Program-made: the position numbers and the translations under genes | Part shown: piece by piece, positions 1-8,692 of the stretch | How positions within the stretch are numbered: position 1 is the stretch's first letter | Layout of the letters: each line of letters starts with the position of its first letter | Assembly (NCBI GenBank): GCA_026398255.1 | Contig: JAPLTG010000033.1 | Coordinates: 62,001 to 126,000, forward strand | Source: Verrucomicrobiota bacterium | GTDB lineage: Bacteria > Verrucomicrobiota > Verrucomicrobiia > Chthoniobacterales > Terrimicrobiaceae | DNA length: 64,000 nt | Reading direction: 5' to 3' | Notes under the pieces: model-generated | Database searches by the model: none | Told to the model about the DNA's origin: nothing | Seen by the model: the letters and a program-made list of their open reading frames with translations, nothing else

Positions 1-36
1 CGGAAATCCTCACCCGCCCGAGTCTCCGGGCCTATT

Positions 37-2200: not shown

Positions 2201-2223
2201 ACAAAGAGCCGAATCGGTCCTCG

Positions 2224-2241
2224 TGTGACAATTCTGTCGCA
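2224..2241 (+). promoter_or_regulatory. Pho-box-like site upstream of pstC
   Basis: TGTGACA at 2224-2230 and TGTCGCA at 2235-2241 are separated by four bases, so the TGT cores are 11 bases apart, the geometry of the PhoB half-sites (CTGTCAT-N4-CTGTCAT). It lies about 100 bases before the pstC start. Nearly the same 18 bases recur at 7842-7859. Binding by a PhoB homologue is inference; no phoB or phoR lies in the window. Confidence 0.6.
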
Positions 2242-2344: not shown

Positions 2345-4636
2345 ATGCCGAATACTAAAAAAACTTTACCTGGGCACGCCACCGAGCAGAACCGCTTTGA
2401 GACCTCGAAGCTGACCCTGCTGGTCGATCGGTTCATGACGGTTTTTATCAAATTCGGCGGCGCGCTGGTTATCACCTCCGTGCTGGGAATTTTTGTTTTT
2501 ATTGTTCTGCAAATCTGGCCGCTCTTCGCCCCACCAAGCGTCACGCCGCTGAAAAGCATTCCGCTCCCCGACACCAAATACGCCCTGCTCGGTGTCGATG
2601 AATGGGGCGCAAAACCCTTCCTCGTTGAGCCCGACGGTTCCCTCCTCGTCGTCGATTACGAGACCGGCGAAACCCAAGACCAATCCCTCAACCTCGGAAT
2701 CACCGGTCAGGTCACCGCCGCCTTCCTCAATAAGCGGGAACAAAAAATCATCCTGGGCACATCGAACGGCCAATTTGTCTTTGTCTCTCCAAACCACACC
2801 TCGCGCGAGTCGGGTGGTCGCCAGATCATCGATGTGAACCCCACCGCCGAGACGCCCTCCTCGATCGGAGATCCCGGCATGCCGATCACCGACATCGCTT
2901 ACGGAGATTCCGGCAGCAGCAAGCTCATCGTCGCCCTCCAATCCGACGGCGAGACGAACCGAGTGACCGCCTCGCTTTTCAAGCGCAAGCGCTCGCTCAT
3001 GGGCAAAAACAAAGAAGAAGCCGCCGGAACCCATGATCTGACACCCATGATCCCTGGCCGACCCGAGAAAATCCTCGTTCCAGTCACAGGCGATTCCGTG
3101 GTGGTGATCAGTGAGAGCGGCAAGGTCAGCTACCTCGTTCTTGCCGACGGAAAATTCGAGCTTCGCCAATCCTTCACCCCCTTCGGAGATCTGGCCAACT
3201 CGCACATCAATGTCGCCAATTTCATCTTTGGCGATGTCTCGATCGCCTTCGCCAGCGACTCGGGCGAGAACCGCATTTTCAGCCTGTTCTATCCCGAGGG
3301 CGGAAAGGAACGACTCTTCGGCATCACCCACGAATTCCCAAATCTCGGCGCGAGCCCCGTGCTTCTCGTCTCGACCCTTCGCAACAAGGCCTTCCTTCTC
3401 GGCGGGGGCAAGGAACTCTCCCTCCGCTACTCGACCACCGAGTCCATCCGCTGGCAGAGCCGCGTCCCCTATCCCGTCTCGAACGCCGTCATCAGCGGAA
3501 AATATCAACGCCTCGCCGTGCTCGACTCATCGAACACCCTCCATTTTTTCCAAATCGACGACCCGCATCCCGACTCGGGCTGGAAGGCTCTTTTCGGCAA
3601 AGTCTGGTATGAAGGCGCGCCGGGGCCGAAGTGGGATTGGCAAAGCACGGGCGGCAGTGACGATTTCGAACCCAAATACTCCCTCGTGCCTCTGATTTTC
3701 GGAACGCTGAAAGGCACTCTCTACGCCATGCTTTTCGCCGTGCCGATCGCCCTCCTCGCGGCCCTCTACACCTCCCAATTCCTCGACCCGCGCTTCCGCT
3801 CCACCGTCAAGCCGACCATGGAAATCATGGCCTCCTTGCCATCGGTCGTCCTGGGTTTTCTCGCCGCGATCTACATCGCCCCGCTGATCGAACGCCAGGT
3901 TCCTTCCCTGCTTCTGGTCGTCGTGGGAGTTCCGATTGTGGCAGCCTTTTCAGGATTCTTCTGGAGCCATCTCCCAATCCAAATCCGCAAATTCATCCGC
4001 CCGGGCTGGGAGTGGATCGTTTTCCTTCCCCTGCTCTTCATCAGCGCTGGGATTCTCTGGTATCTCGGGCCAGCCTTCGAGTCCGTGGCCTTCGTCGTGA
4101 CCGATCCCGCCACGGGGCAAAAAACAGCCGACTTCCGGGCTTGGTGGCCAGCTGTGACCGGCGCGAGCTACGATCAGCGAAACTCTCTTGTCGTCGGGTT
4201 CATGATGGGCTTCGCCGTCATTCCGATCATTTTTACCATCACCGAGGACGCCCTCTCGAATGTCCCCAAGCCCCTGATTACGGCCTCCATGGCCTGCGGA
4301 GCCAGTCGCTGGCAGACCGCCCTGCGCGTCGTCATGCCGACCGCATCGGCCGGCATTTTCTCAGCCCTCATGATCGGCCTCGGCCGCGCGGTTGGCGAAA
4401 CGATGATCGTCGTCATGGCTACCGGCAACACCCCGATCATGGAGTGGAATATTTTCTCCGGCATGAGGACGCTCTCCGCAAACATCGCCGTGGAACTTCC
4501 CGAAGCCCCGCACCACGCCACCCTCTACCGCACCCTCTTCCTCGGTGCCCTCGTGTTGTTTCTTCTCACTTTTGCCATCAACACCGTCGCCGAGGTTCTC
4601 CGCCAGCACCTCCGGGAAAAATTCAAGACGACCTAG
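2345..4636 (+). CDS. pstC: Phosphate ABC transporter permease PstC, long form with extracytoplasmic domain
   Basis: Inner-membrane permease of the high-affinity phosphate transporter. At 763 residues it is more than twice the length of E. coli PstC. One membrane helix at about residues 35-55 is followed by about 390 soluble residues with recurring beta-strand, propeller-like segments. The permease block starts near residue 454 and has the EAA coupling loop ASMACGASRWQTALRVVMP near 647. Long PstC forms are known in Proteobacteria, for example Pseudomonas. It is the first gene of pstC-pstA-pstB-phoU, with a Pho-box-like site upstream. No pstS binding-protein gene lies nearby. Confidence 0.9.
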   Translation: MPNTKKTLPGHATEQNRFETSKLTLLVDRFMTVFIKFGGALVITSVLGIFVFIVLQIWPLFAPPSVTPLKSIPLPDTKYALLGVDEWGAKPFLVEPDGSLLVVDYETGETQDQSLNLGITGQVTAAFLNKREQKIILGTSNGQFVFVSPNHTSRESGGRQIIDVNPTAETPSSIGDPGMPITDIAYGDSGSSKLIVALQSDGETNRVTASLFKRKRSLMGKNKEEAAGTHDLTPMIPGRPEKILVPVTGDSVVVISESGKVSYLVLADGKFELRQSFTPFGDLANSHINVANFIFGDVSIAFASDSGENRIFSLFYPEGGKERLFGITHEFPNLGASPVLLVSTLRNKAFLLGGGKELSLRYSTTESIRWQSRVPYPVSNAVISGKYQRLAVLDSSNTLHFFQIDDPHPDSGWKALFGKVWYEGAPGPKWDWQSTGGSDDFEPKYSLVPLIFGTLKGTLYAMLFAVPIALLAALYTSQFLDPRFRSTVKPTMEIMASLPSVVLGFLAAIYIAPLIERQVPSLLLVVVGVPIVAAFSGFFWSHLPIQIRKFIRPGWEWIVFLPLLFISAGILWYLGPAFESVAFVVTDPATGQKTADFRAWWPAVTGASYDQRNSLVVGFMMGFAVIPIIFTITEDALSNVPKPLITASMACGASRWQTALRVVMPTASAGIFSALMIGLGRAVGETMIVVMATGNTPIMEWNIFSGMRTLSANIAVELPEAPHHATLYRTLFLGALVLFLLTFAINTVAEVLRQHLREKFKTT

Positions 4637-4639
4637 GCC

Positions 4640-6301
4640 ATGCGCGACACCGACACCAAGGATCTCGAACTCACCCGAACCCTCGCCGCCCCCGGCGAAC
4701 CCTTCGTCTGGCTCACAGCCATGGGCCTCGCTCTGGGCCTGATCATGGTCGTCGGCTTGCTTGGCGTGATCGTGGCCAACGGCCTGCCGGTTTTCTGGCC
4801 CTCGAAAATTGTCGAAGTCCATCTCAAGCCGGGAGTCAAAAACCCCCTCCCCAATTCCGGCGGAACACTCACCGGCGAAATCGTCCAGACCCGCGAGAAA
4901 CGCATTCCGGTCCTCAGCGCCACCGGCGACAAAATCGAAGATCAGACCGAAGTCCAAATCTTCGTCGGCAACAAGGATGTCAACGGCTCCGGTTTCGTCT
5001 TCCTTAACAATTCCGACATCGCCTCCATCTCCGAACCTCGGGGCATCTACCGCCTCGAGCGCATGGAATATGGCATCGCTTTCGCCTACCCAAAATCTCT
5101 CCAACTCGCGGATGGCACCTCTCTCCCCGCGGACTCCCCCGCCTTCACCCAAACCCTCACCCGCCTGGATGCCGAATCCGCCGCTCGCCGCCGTGAGATC
5201 GAAAAGATCGAAAAACACGACATCGGCGCCATCAATTCCCGCATCACCCAACTCCGAGCCAAAGGCAAGGGATCCCCGGAATCCCTGAAGGAAATCGCCG
5301 CCCTCGACGCCGATTATCAACTCCTCGCCGCCAAGGCCCGCGAACTCCGCGCCATCCAATCCGCCGCCGCCCTCATTTATACCACCCCGAACGGCATCGA
5401 GCGCCGTCTCCCCGTAGGCGAACTTGTCGCTTTCACCCTGCCAAACACTCTCGTTTTCAACCAAAAACTCGGCCTGTTTTTTCACAACATCTGGAATTTC
5501 CTGACGCTCGATCCCCGCGAGGCAAATACCGAAGGCGGCATCTTTCCCGCGATCTTTGGCACTTTCGTTATGACTCTCCTGATGAGCCTCGCCGTCGTTC
5601 CCTTCGGCGTCGTGGCGGCCATCTACCTGCGCGAATACGCCAAGCAAGGCCTCGCCGTTCGCGCCGTGCGCATCGCCGTCAACAACCTCGCCGGTGTGCC
5701 ATCCATCGTTTTCGGCGTCTTCGGCCTCGGCTTTTTCGTCTATTTTGTCGGAGCCTCGATCGATAGCACCTTTTTCGGCGAATACCTCCCCACCCCGACC
5801 TTCGGCACCGGCGGTATCCTCTGGGCCGCCGCCACGCTCGCGCTCATGACCGTCCCTGTGGTGATCGTGGCCACTGAGGAGGCGCTCGCCGCAGTTCCAC
5901 GCGGAATGCGCGAGGGGTCGCTCTCCTGCGGCGCTTCGAAATGGCAGACGATCCAGCGCATTATTCTCCCTGCCTCCCTTCCGGGCATTCTCACCGGCTT
6001 GATCCTCGCGATGGCCCGCGGTGCCGGCGAGGTCGCCCCCCTCATGCTGGTCGGCGTGGTGAAACTCGCCCCCAGCCTTCCGATCGACGGCGCTTTTCCC
6101 TTTGTCCACCTTGAGCGCAAATTCATGCACCTCGGATTCCACATCTACGATCTGGGCTTTCAATCGCCCGACTCCGAAGCTGCCAAGCCCATGGTTTTCG
6201 CCACCACCCTTCTTCTGATACTTCTCGTCGTCGTCCTCAACCTCGCCGCCATCCTGATCCGTGAGAAACTCCGAAAACGATATGCCACCGGTGCTTTCTA
6301 A
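4640..6301 (+). CDS. pstA: Phosphate ABC transporter permease PstA, long form
   Basis: Second permease of the phosphate importer, starting three bases after pstC. The 553-residue protein has one helix at about residues 30-55, then about 240 soluble residues that include a Lys/Glu-rich, probably coiled segment, and then the permease block from about residue 304. The coupling motif [18 protein letters not shown] is near 425. The same architecture in PstC and PstA suggests that the two extracytoplasmic parts evolved together. Overlap with pstB supports a single transcript. Confidence 0.9.
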
Positions 6302-7106
6302 GCCCACCGAACAACCCATGGAAACCACTGTCAATACCACCGCCGAAGGACGACCGGATTTCATCTCCATCCGCGACTTCAGTTTTTTCTACGGCAAAAA
6401 ACAGGCCCTCTTCGACATCTCGCTCGACATTCCCGAGCGCCAAGTCACCGCCTTTATCGGGCCCTCCGGCTGTGGAAAATCCACGCTCCTGCGAAACCTC
6501 AATCGCATGAATGACCTCATCGATGGCATCCGCCATTCGGGCGACATCGTCGTGAACGGCCGCAGCATTTATGATCCCCACATCGAGGTGATTTCGCTGC
6601 GCAAACGAGTGGGCATGGTTTTCCAAAAATCCAACCCCTTCCCGAAATCCATCTACGAGAATGTCGTTTACCCCCTCCGGGTCTCGGGGCAGAACAAAAA
6701 ATCCGTCCTCGATGAAACCGTGGAGCGCAGCCTCCAAGGTGCCGCCCTGTGGGATGAAGTAAAGGACCGTCTCCACGAAAGCGGCCTCAGCCTCTCGGGC
6801 GGCCAGATGCAGCGCCTCTGCATCGCCCGCGCCATCGCCAACCGCCCCGAAATTCTCCTGATGGATGAACCCTGCTCCGCGCTCGACCCGATTGCGACCG
6901 TGAAAGTCGAGGAGTTGATTCGCGAGTTGAAACAGGAATTCACCATCGTCATCGTCACCCACAACATGCAGCAGGCCACGCGTTGCTCGGACCGCACGGC
7001 CTTCTTCTATCTCGGAAAGCTTGTGGAGTTTGATGAAACTCCGAAAATCTTCAGCAACCCCGCGCAAAAACAAACCGAGGATTACATCACCGGCCGCTTC
7101 GGCTGA
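6282..7106 (+). CDS. pstB: Phosphate ABC transporter ATP-binding protein PstB
   Basis: Cytosolic ATPase of the phosphate importer. It shows Walker [21 protein letters not shown], the signature [16 protein letters not shown], Walker [14 protein letters not shown] and the switch His in IVTHNMQQA. The RNLNRMNDL wording after Walker A is typical of PstB. The frame is open from a GTG at 6261 inside pstA; ATGs at 6282 and 6318 are both possible. The latter gives 262 residues, closest to the E. coli protein, while 6282 is the first ATG in frame. Confidence 0.93.
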
Positions 7107-7144: not shown

Positions 7145-7825
7145 ATGGAAACACCCCGCCACATCCTCACCAACTTCGAAACCGCCCTCGAGAACCTCCG
7201 CAAGGATGTTCTCATGATGGCGAGCCTCGCCGCCCGCAGCATCGACAGCGCTCGCAAGGGACTTTTCGAACGCGACGAAGATTGGTGCAACACCGTCATC
7301 GCCGATGACGAGGAGGTGGATACCCTGGAAATCCAAATCGATAAGGCCGGAATGGACATCATGCTGCGCTACCATCCCTTCGCCTCGGATTTGCGCAATG
7401 TGATCGCGGCGATGAAGACCAGCGTGAACCTCGAACGGGCTGCCGACCAAGCCGTCGGCATTGCCCGCCGTGCCCGCAAGCTCATCTTGCAACCCGCGCT
7501 CCCTGAAATCGCCCGTATCGAGCCGCTTTTCGACACCGCGACGAATTTGTTCAAGGATGCCATCAAGGCCTTTTCCGATGGCGATATCGAACTCGCCCGC
7601 ACCCTCAAACTCCGCGACAAGGGACTCGACGAGCAAAACCGCTCTTTTGCCGAAACACTCGCCGACCTGATGCAGAAAAACCCGGACTCGATCCGTGGCT
7701 ATCTCGAGCTGATCTTCATTGCCCGCTGCCTCGAGCGCATCGGTGACCAAGCCAAGAGCATCGCGGAGGACACCATCTACGCGGTCGAGGTGAAGGACAT
7801 CCGCCACACCTCCATCCCCAACTGA
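7145..7825 (+). CDS. phoU: Phosphate signalling protein PhoU
   Basis: Predicted negative modulator linking PstSCAB to the PhoR/PhoB signalling pair. The 226 residues are of normal length and contain two three-helix PhoU repeats, each with the metal-binding E/DxxxD-like signature: LERAADQAVGIARRA near residue 98 and LERIGDQAKSIAED near 196. It follows pstB by 38 bases and closes the operon. A second Pho-box-like site begins 17 bases after its stop. Confidence 0.93.
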   Translation: METPRHILTNFETALENLRKDVLMMASLAARSIDSARKGLFERDEDWCNTVIADDEEVDTLEIQIDKAGMDIMLRYHPFASDLRNVIAAMKTSVNLERAADQAVGIARRARKLILQPALPEIARIEPLFDTATNLFKDAIKAFSDGDIELARTLKLRDKGLDEQNRSFAETLADLMQKNPDSIRGYLELIFIARCLERIGDQAKSIAEDTIYAVEVKDIRHTSIPN

Positions 7826-7841
7826 ACGGGGAGTCCTTCCG

Positions 7842-7859
7842 TGTGACAATCTTGTCACA
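7842..7859 (+). promoter_or_regulatory. Second Pho-box-like site, before the metallophosphoesterase gene
   Basis: TGTGACA at 7842-7848 and TGTCACA at 7853-7859 are spaced by four bases, matching the site at 2224-2241. It also reads as an inverted repeat, TGTGACAA-TC-TTGTCACA. It lies 42 bases upstream of the start at 7901, a normal promoter distance. Inverted symmetry leaves a dimeric regulator other than PhoB possible; the spacer of eight between TGTGA and TCACA argues against classical CRP. Confidence 0.6.
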
Positions 7860-7900
7860 CCCCCTTCCTTGCGGGGAATTTTCACCTCGGATCGACTGCG

Positions 7901-8692
7901 ATGCGGATGAACCACTACCGCACCGGTTGGATTTCAGATGTGCATTTGGGAACCAAGGGCAGCCAAGCCAGCGCCTTGATCAATTTTCTCAGGGATACGG
8001 AATTTGAGACGCTCTACCTTGTCGGCGATTTGATTGATATCTGGGCTCTTCGTCGCGGAATCTACTGGCCGCAGGATCACAACGATGTGATCCAAAAACT
8101 CCTCCGCAAGGGCCGCAAAGGCACCGAGATCATTTACATTCCTGGCAACCACGACGAATTCCTCTCCGCCTTCCACGGGCACTATGCCAGCGTCGAAATC
8201 CGCAAGAATGCGATCCACACCACGGCGGACGGCCGAAAAATCCTCGTCATCCACGGGCATGAACTCGATACCGTCGTCCAAAACCTCGGCTGGTTGGCCC
8301 ACCTCGGGGACATCGGCTATGTGCTGCTCATGCGCTGCAACGGCGTCGTCAATTTCTTCCGTCAACTCTTCGGGCTCGGCCACTGGTCCCTCAGCGCCTA
8401 TGTGAAAGCAGAGGTCAAAAATGTCGTGAGCTTCATCGGCAAATTTGAGGAATCCATCGTTCGGTTCGCCCGCGACCACAGCGTCGATGCCGTCCTCTGC
8501 GGCCATATCCACACCCCGGCCGTGCGCGAGATCGAAGGGATCACCTACTACAACTGCGGGGACTGGGTGGAAAGCCTCACCGCGATGGTCGAACACTTCG
8601 ATGGCCGGATGGAACTCTTGGATTTTCGGGACATCCCGAACGAAACCCAAACCCCCGAGTTGCACGAATCCCCTCTCCTCGCGGCGAGCTAA
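7901..8692 (+). CDS. COG2908 metallophosphoesterase, possible PlcP phospholipase C or LpxH-like hydrolase
   Basis: A 263-residue calcineurin-type phosphoesterase. All metal motifs are visible: ISDVHLG, GDLIDIW, IPGNHDEF, VIHGHELD and CGHIHTPA, followed by YYNCGDWVESLTAMVE, which is typical of the UDP-2,3-diacylglucosamine hydrolase-like group. That group includes LpxH-type enzymes and PlcP, the Mn-dependent phospholipase C that strips phosphate from membrane lipids under phosphate starvation. Its place behind pst-phoU with its own Pho-box-like site favours PlcP. Sequence alone does not separate the two. No agt-type lipid glycosyltransferase is adjacent. Confidence 0.75.
   Translation: MRMNHYRTGWISDVHLGTKGSQASALINFLRDTEFETLYLVGDLIDIWALRRGIYWPQDHNDVIQKLLRKGRKGTEIIYIPGNHDEFLSAFHGHYASVEIRKNAIHTTADGRKILVIHGHELDTVVQNLGWLAHLGDIGYVLLMRCNGVVNFFRQLFGLGHWSLSAYVKAEVKNVVSFIGKFEESIVRFARDHSVDAVLCGHIHTPAVREIEGITYYNCGDWVESLTAMVEHFDGRMELLDFRDIPNETQTPELHESPLLAAS

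Follow-up and report, generated by a model that had tools for sequence, protein, structure and literature searches.

A PlcP-like gene with a Pho-box-like site in Chthoniobacterales points to probable phospholipid cleavage under phosphate starvation

In the window, i.e., the whole 64,000-nt stretch on contig C13 that was analysed here, a gene coding for a metallophosphoesterase of the COG2908 family lies downstream of a phosphate transport operon. The locus raises the question of whether this gene encodes an LpxH-type enzyme of lipid A synthesis or a PlcP-type phospholipase C that would act when phosphate is short. The genome analysed, from a freshwater-type verrucomicrobium, comprises 2.6 Mb in 44 contigs. 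Its nearest named relatives are MAGs labelled Spartobacteria, Chthoniobacter or Terrimicrobiaceae, which places it on the Chthoniobacterales side of Verrucomicrobiota. The features of the locus, the sites detected in the genome and the candidate partner genes are collected in Table 1. The genes pstC, pstA, pstB and phoU were assigned with NCBIfam equivalog models, each scoring above the cut-off, and they are directly followed by the plcP-like open reading frame, just as an earlier note on this DNA had claimed. The gap between the end of phoU (7825) and this frame amounts to 75 bp. The frame starts with ATG at 7901, and the in-frame ATG at 7907 is an alternative possible start. A scan of 7780-7930 with promoter and terminator consensus sequences gave no match. 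PstC (763 aa) and PstA (553 aa) much exceed the models of 272-296 positions, which cover their C-terminal parts. The pstS gene is absent from the pst operon of the window and is located on contig C42.

Table 1. Genes and Pho-box-like sites of the window (positions in the window), further sites of the genome and candidate glycosyltransferases.
Feature	Position	Strand	Description
pstC	2345..4636	+	763 aa, long N-terminal extension; TIGR02138, 201.7 bits (cut-off 196.45)
pstA	4640..6301	+	553 aa; TIGR00974, 241.9 bits (cut-off 193.45)
pstB	6261..7106	+	TIGR00972, 401.4 bits (cut-off 343.2)
phoU	7145..7825	+	TIGR02135, 166.4 bits (cut-off 130.25)
plcP-like metallophosphoesterase	7901..8692	+	263 aa, seven metal ligands, His84 at the position of LpxH Arg80
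Pho-box-like site of plcP	7841..7858	+	TGTGAC-N5-TGTCAC, 11-bp direct repeat, also near palindrome
Pho-box-like site of the pst operon	2223..2240	+	pattern match, upstream of pstC
Genome sites 1-3			before pstC, plcP and pstS; genome-wide scan
Genome site	C42:221628		105 bp upstream of the gene for a 414-aa protein that looks exported, no Pfam/NCBIfam match
Genome site	C42:241992 (L049:3993-4010)		between OprB porin and ShlB-type two-partner secretion transporter
Genome site	C26:35131		before epimerase/DUF1731 protein
Genome site	C14:86786		strong; 320 bp from contig end, downstream gene, if any, cut off
Candidate glycosyltransferase	C22, beside lpxI		GT28 with MGDG_synth domain (MGDG-synthase/UgtP-like)
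Candidate glycosyltransferase	G000:C17:186373-188784 (L112:3374-5785)		803 aa, Agt-like GT4 domain at the C-terminal end
Candidate glycosyltransferase	C27		GT4

The Pfam search with the 263-aa protein returned only general calcineurin-like domains. Its best PDB and NCBIfam sequence matches were LpxH, and public records label plasmid-borne relatives of the gene as this lipid A enzyme. The two NCBIfam LpxH equivalog models scored far under their cut-offs (45.9 vs. 134 bits and 44.4 vs. 190.35 bits). The window protein shares 23% identity with E. coli LpxH, 50% with the S. meliloti PlcP row over 244 residues and 50% with the P. aeruginosa PlcP row over 239 residues. The two PlcP rows are 47% identical, and the window protein is thus as close to both as they are to each other. 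We assigned the S. meliloti row to SMc00171 on account of its 47% identity to the P. aeruginosa row and of the adjoining LuxR-type regulator and AHL synthase genes, which we take to be the neighbours of SMc00171. The P. aeruginosa row is the plasmid copy of a plcP-glycosyltransferase pair and is assumed to represent PA3219. The value printed for S. meliloti PlcP and PA3219 in the accessible part of PMC8528852 is 46%.

All seven metal ligands (D13, H15, D43, N83, H118, H202, and H204) are present in the window protein, and they are common to PlcP and LpxH. The window protein, both PlcPs and all 31 verrucomicrobial rows have His at position 84, but all five LpxH rows have Arg there. According to the available portion of PMC5016852, Arg80 is found only in LpxH, where it binds the phosphate of lipid X. 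Both Bacteroidales rows located on the LpxH side of the tree described below also carry His at this position, so Arg marks LpxH proper and not every protein annotated as LpxH. The top structural matches of the predicted fold were LpxH (Z about 19); the model is weak in an insertion, with block means below 60 from 121 to 180. Since LpxH has the same fold, the fold search does not separate PlcP from LpxH, and an LpxH match is to be expected family-wide.

The tree was built from 52 rows: the window protein, 31 of 70 relative loci chosen for spread, two PlcPs, 11 plasmid or phage members, five LpxH, and two Bacteroidales proteins retrieved with an LpxH query. A 100/99 branch separated the five LpxH and two Bacteroidales rows from the other 45, which include the window protein, both PlcPs and the plcP-agt-linked proteins. 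The window protein falls inside a 31-row verrucomicrobial group (95/100) that stands next to the proteobacterial PlcPs; around it, members from phages and proteobacteria are intermixed. L085 (44%), also verrucomicrobial, lies outside that group, together with a Parabacteroides protein. PlcP-like genes are carried by Pelagibacter phage Mosig EXVC030M (L099, 3001-3738) and Synechococcus phage S-SRM01 (L180, 1495-2199); the gene next to the one in Mosig, on the opposite strand, bears the annotation of a putative phosphate ABC transporter.

LpxI is an alternative enzyme for the LpxH step of lipid A synthesis. It was found in 87 of 97 genomes, and in the genome analysed it is located at C22:26105-26488. 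As LpxI is present here and in most relatives, the plcP-like gene is unnecessary for lipid A. PlcP-like genes were detected in 66 of the 97 genomes and no homologue was shown for the other 31, which is unlike the distribution of a lipid A gene. It is therefore well supported by these comparisons that the window gene encodes a PlcP-like and not an LpxH-like protein, with a presumed phospholipase activity. The preference of the earlier note for PlcP over LpxH was borne out by the tree, the identity values, the active-site residue and the presence of LpxI.

The earlier note had also ascribed to the gene its own copy of the site found before pstC. A site is indeed present upstream of the plcP-like gene, and it is a near copy of the pstC site (15 of 18 positions identical), not an exact one. 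A pattern built from both sites gave three strand-matches in the window compared with 0.22 expected by shuffling, a test that is partly circular, as the pattern was derived from the two sites it scores. Evidence independent of the pattern-making comes from the sites before the genome's own pstS, before pstC or pstS of relatives and before plcP homologues across the order. The own pstS on contig C42 has the site 53 bp upstream. The genome was scanned with TGTKACRRNNYYGTMRCA at up to one mismatch, with the reversed pattern as a control. Seven places were found, and the control gave one forward and one reverse match. The genes at C42:241992 and C42:221628 are possible further phosphate-regulated genes. 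A search of the nearest relative for the continuation of the contig end behind C14:86786 yielded nothing beyond short repeat-like matches.

A regulator and kinase pair that might act on the site is located on contig C22, where an OmpR-type regulator gene adjoins a kinase gene; their best models are PhoB and PnpS/PhoR, respectively. The regulator scored 232 bits with the PhoB model, under the cut-off of 296.2, and the kinase scored 320 bits with PnpS (cut-off 400) and 257 bits with PhoR (cut-off 334). Out of 22 matches of the PhoB model in the genome, only the C22 regulator spans the model end to end.

Because pstS precedes pstC in most relatives, it is the pstS promoter that has to be inspected. 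Of 12 stretches fetched from the region before pstC, 8 contained a perfect match to TGTKAC-N5-TGTMAC; in one of these, from relative G003, the site lies 52 bp before pstS. The other four stretches, two of which were shorter than 1,300 bases because of a contig end, had no site at up to one mismatch. In six related genomes, TGTKACRRNNYYGTMRCA without mismatch occurred in 17 places, and the reversed control in none. Of these places, two lie upstream of plcP, three upstream of PstS-like genes and one upstream of pstC; several more precede genes with no evident tie to phosphate. No zero-mismatch site was found in G010, one of the six genomes.

For the plcP homologues, 200 bp upstream of 70 loci (54 distinct sequences) were scored against TGTKACN5TGTMAC. 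At most one mismatch was observed in 24 of the 54 upstreams and at most two in 35, compared with 0.1 and 1.7, respectively, expected from dinucleotide shuffles; the remaining 19 had three or more. The site is weak, with four mismatches, in L034, the homologue from the same-family genome G017. The control consisted of 403 upstreams of other genes from 36 of 41 loci, with five loci omitted as plcP was missed by the gene finder. A site with at most one mismatch was seen in only eight control upstreams, five of which belong to PstS or PstC genes. In a second set, which overlaps the first in species and is not independent of it, 53 of 78 loci had at most two mismatches vs. 3.6 in single-base shuffles (80 loci were retrieved, two with too little upstream sequence). 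The sequences within both sets are related, and the counts do not equal independent events. Judged by its sequence and conservation, this is a genuine 11-bp repeat of the Pho-box type, to which a PhoB-like regulator would bind to induce the gene.

Among 36 loci with a neighbourhood table, plcP lies directly 3' of phoU only in the window and in its closest relative, L051, so the placement behind pst-phoU is a recent arrangement. Read-through from pst as the sole control was rejected: in 34 of the 36 loci plcP is not directly behind phoU, and many of them keep the site. Since the site is kept where plcP does not adjoin phoU (e.g., L019, L036, and L037), it is the site and not the gene position that appears as the lasting link of plcP to phosphate. 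The phosphate control suggested in the earlier note thereby gains support from a site conserved across the order. In a remote family within the order, plcP of L070 heads a plcP-pstS-pstC-pstA-pstB-phoU cluster. In L082, plcP adjoins PstS and porin genes, and genes for a PiT-type transporter and polyphosphate kinase are close by. It is near PhoB-like and PstS genes in L080 and near CHAD genes in L087. In one family (L068:8007-8348 and relatives), a protein of ~115 aa with no Pfam match overlaps the plcP end by 4 bp and is a possible partner.

A check named in the earlier note, for lipid glycosyltransferase genes that share the site, gave a negative result. None of the seven sites precedes a glycosyltransferase gene, and no such site was found near the three candidate glycosyltransferases. 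Of 97 genomes, 95 have Agt-like glycosyltransferases irrespective of plcP, which means no co-occurrence; many of these matches lie in open frames of at least about 800 aa. Alongside PlcP, a surrogate lipid is commonly, though not universally, made by Agt, OlsB/OlsA or BtaA/BtaB. Searches for OlsB and BtaA gave no match in this genome. OlsB-type proteins were found in 16 of 97 genomes, 14 of them with plcP (Fisher p 0.08), and BtaA-type proteins over the cut-off in 14 of 97, 13 of them with plcP (Fisher p 0.03), where the p values are uncorrected for kinship, completeness and number of tests. At the six OlsB or BtaA loci inspected, no site within one mismatch was found. The absent co-regulated partner is the main weakness of the lipid remodelling under phosphate starvation that we infer here. 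The portion of PMC9239053 at hand describes type Ia methanotrophs with plcP and no adjacent agt, several of which have another putative diacylglycerol glycosyltransferase.

We consider it very probable that the gene encodes a PlcP-type phospholipase C that is activated through the site at phosphate shortage, with the resulting diacylglycerol most likely being glycosylated. The simplest reading would be an induced cleavage of phospholipids under phosphate starvation. When phosphate runs out, the PhoR-PhoB-like pair of contig C22 would activate the site at 7841-7858, and plcP would be induced alongside pst and pstS. The metal-dependent COG2908 phospholipase C would then cut the phosphate-bearing head groups off membrane glycerophospholipids, so that phosphate would be freed for reuse and diacylglycerol left behind. 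A glycosyltransferase that is not under the same site would most likely convert the latter into a phosphorus-free lipid, and the best candidate for this step is the GT28 gene beside lpxI. More tentatively, we propose that such one-step control may extend across the order, with PlcP induced and a constitutive glycosyltransferase outside the Agt family making the glycolipid; the GT28 protein or the 803-aa protein may be this enzyme.

Phosphate salvage only, in which diacylglycerol would be recycled into phospholipid or degraded and no replacement lipid made, would agree with the missing site-bearing partner and with the OlsB and BtaA results. We regard it as unlikely, since the GT28 gene and two Agt-like GT4 genes could use diacylglycerol uninduced, and since PlcP in characterised bacteria feeds replacement lipids according to the accessible parts of PMC8528852, PMC9239053 and PMC4796936. 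It is quite improbable that the protein is a phosphate-regulated family member with another substrate, e.g., a glycerophosphodiester, a nucleotide or another phosphorylated lipid. The verrucomicrobial rows do form a clade of their own, for which no enzyme with tested activity was found in the open-access literature, and the genome has no co-regulated lipid-making partner, but the closeness of the window protein to two characterised PlcPs and the phage and proteobacterial members intermixed around it argue for PlcP. An LpxH-type UDP-2,3-diacylglucosamine pyrophosphatase with an incidental site, despite the common fold, metal site and best database matches, was rejected as highly improbable given the sub-cut-off scores, the low identity, the tree split, His84 in place of Arg80, the patchy distribution and an LpxI that fills the step.

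The PlcP-type enzyme preferred here resembles known systems in part. As far as the consulted parts of PMC3596328 and PMC8528852 go, PlcP of S. meliloti and of P. aeruginosa is under Pho control, and the Pho-box-like site suggests the same for the window gene. In P. aeruginosa, plcP is described as the neighbour of agt1 in an operon that carries a Pho box (PMC8528852, in part), whereas the window plcP is behind pst-phoU with no glycosyltransferase adjoining. The window site differs from the consensus printed in the available section of PMC8528852 at 5 of 14 scored positions. The PhoB box CTGTCATNNNNCTGTCAT given there likewise has two half sites around TGTnAn at a spacing of 11 bp; in this order the first half is TGTKAC and the second TGTMAC, which makes a near palindrome. 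A PlcP homologue of the same family and phylum, from a marine verrucomicrobium single-cell genome, is only listed in the accessible part of PMC4796936, without promoter or context in the order Chthoniobacterales. The excerpt of PMC9239053 reports no PlcP in verrucomicrobial methanotrophs, and that of PMC5615132 lists phoRB and pstABC in freshwater Verrucomicrobia and does not cover lipids. Neither the Pho box of Verrucomicrobiota nor lipid remodelling in this order was found described in the open-access literature, a scope outside which most subscription journals fall.

The finding carries an already described survival strategy over to a little-studied group and is not a new strategy. Lakes and soils, in which Verrucomicrobiota are common, are often short of phosphorus, and to our knowledge the lipid response of these bacteria has hardly been studied. 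The capacity for remodelling is easily missed, because relatives of the gene stand in public records as a lipid A enzyme. If the one-step control holds, the PlcP pathway of the order would differ in its second enzyme and in its wiring. The order-wide site can serve directly as a motif for the group's Pho regulon, and it makes the question testable in a cultured relative.
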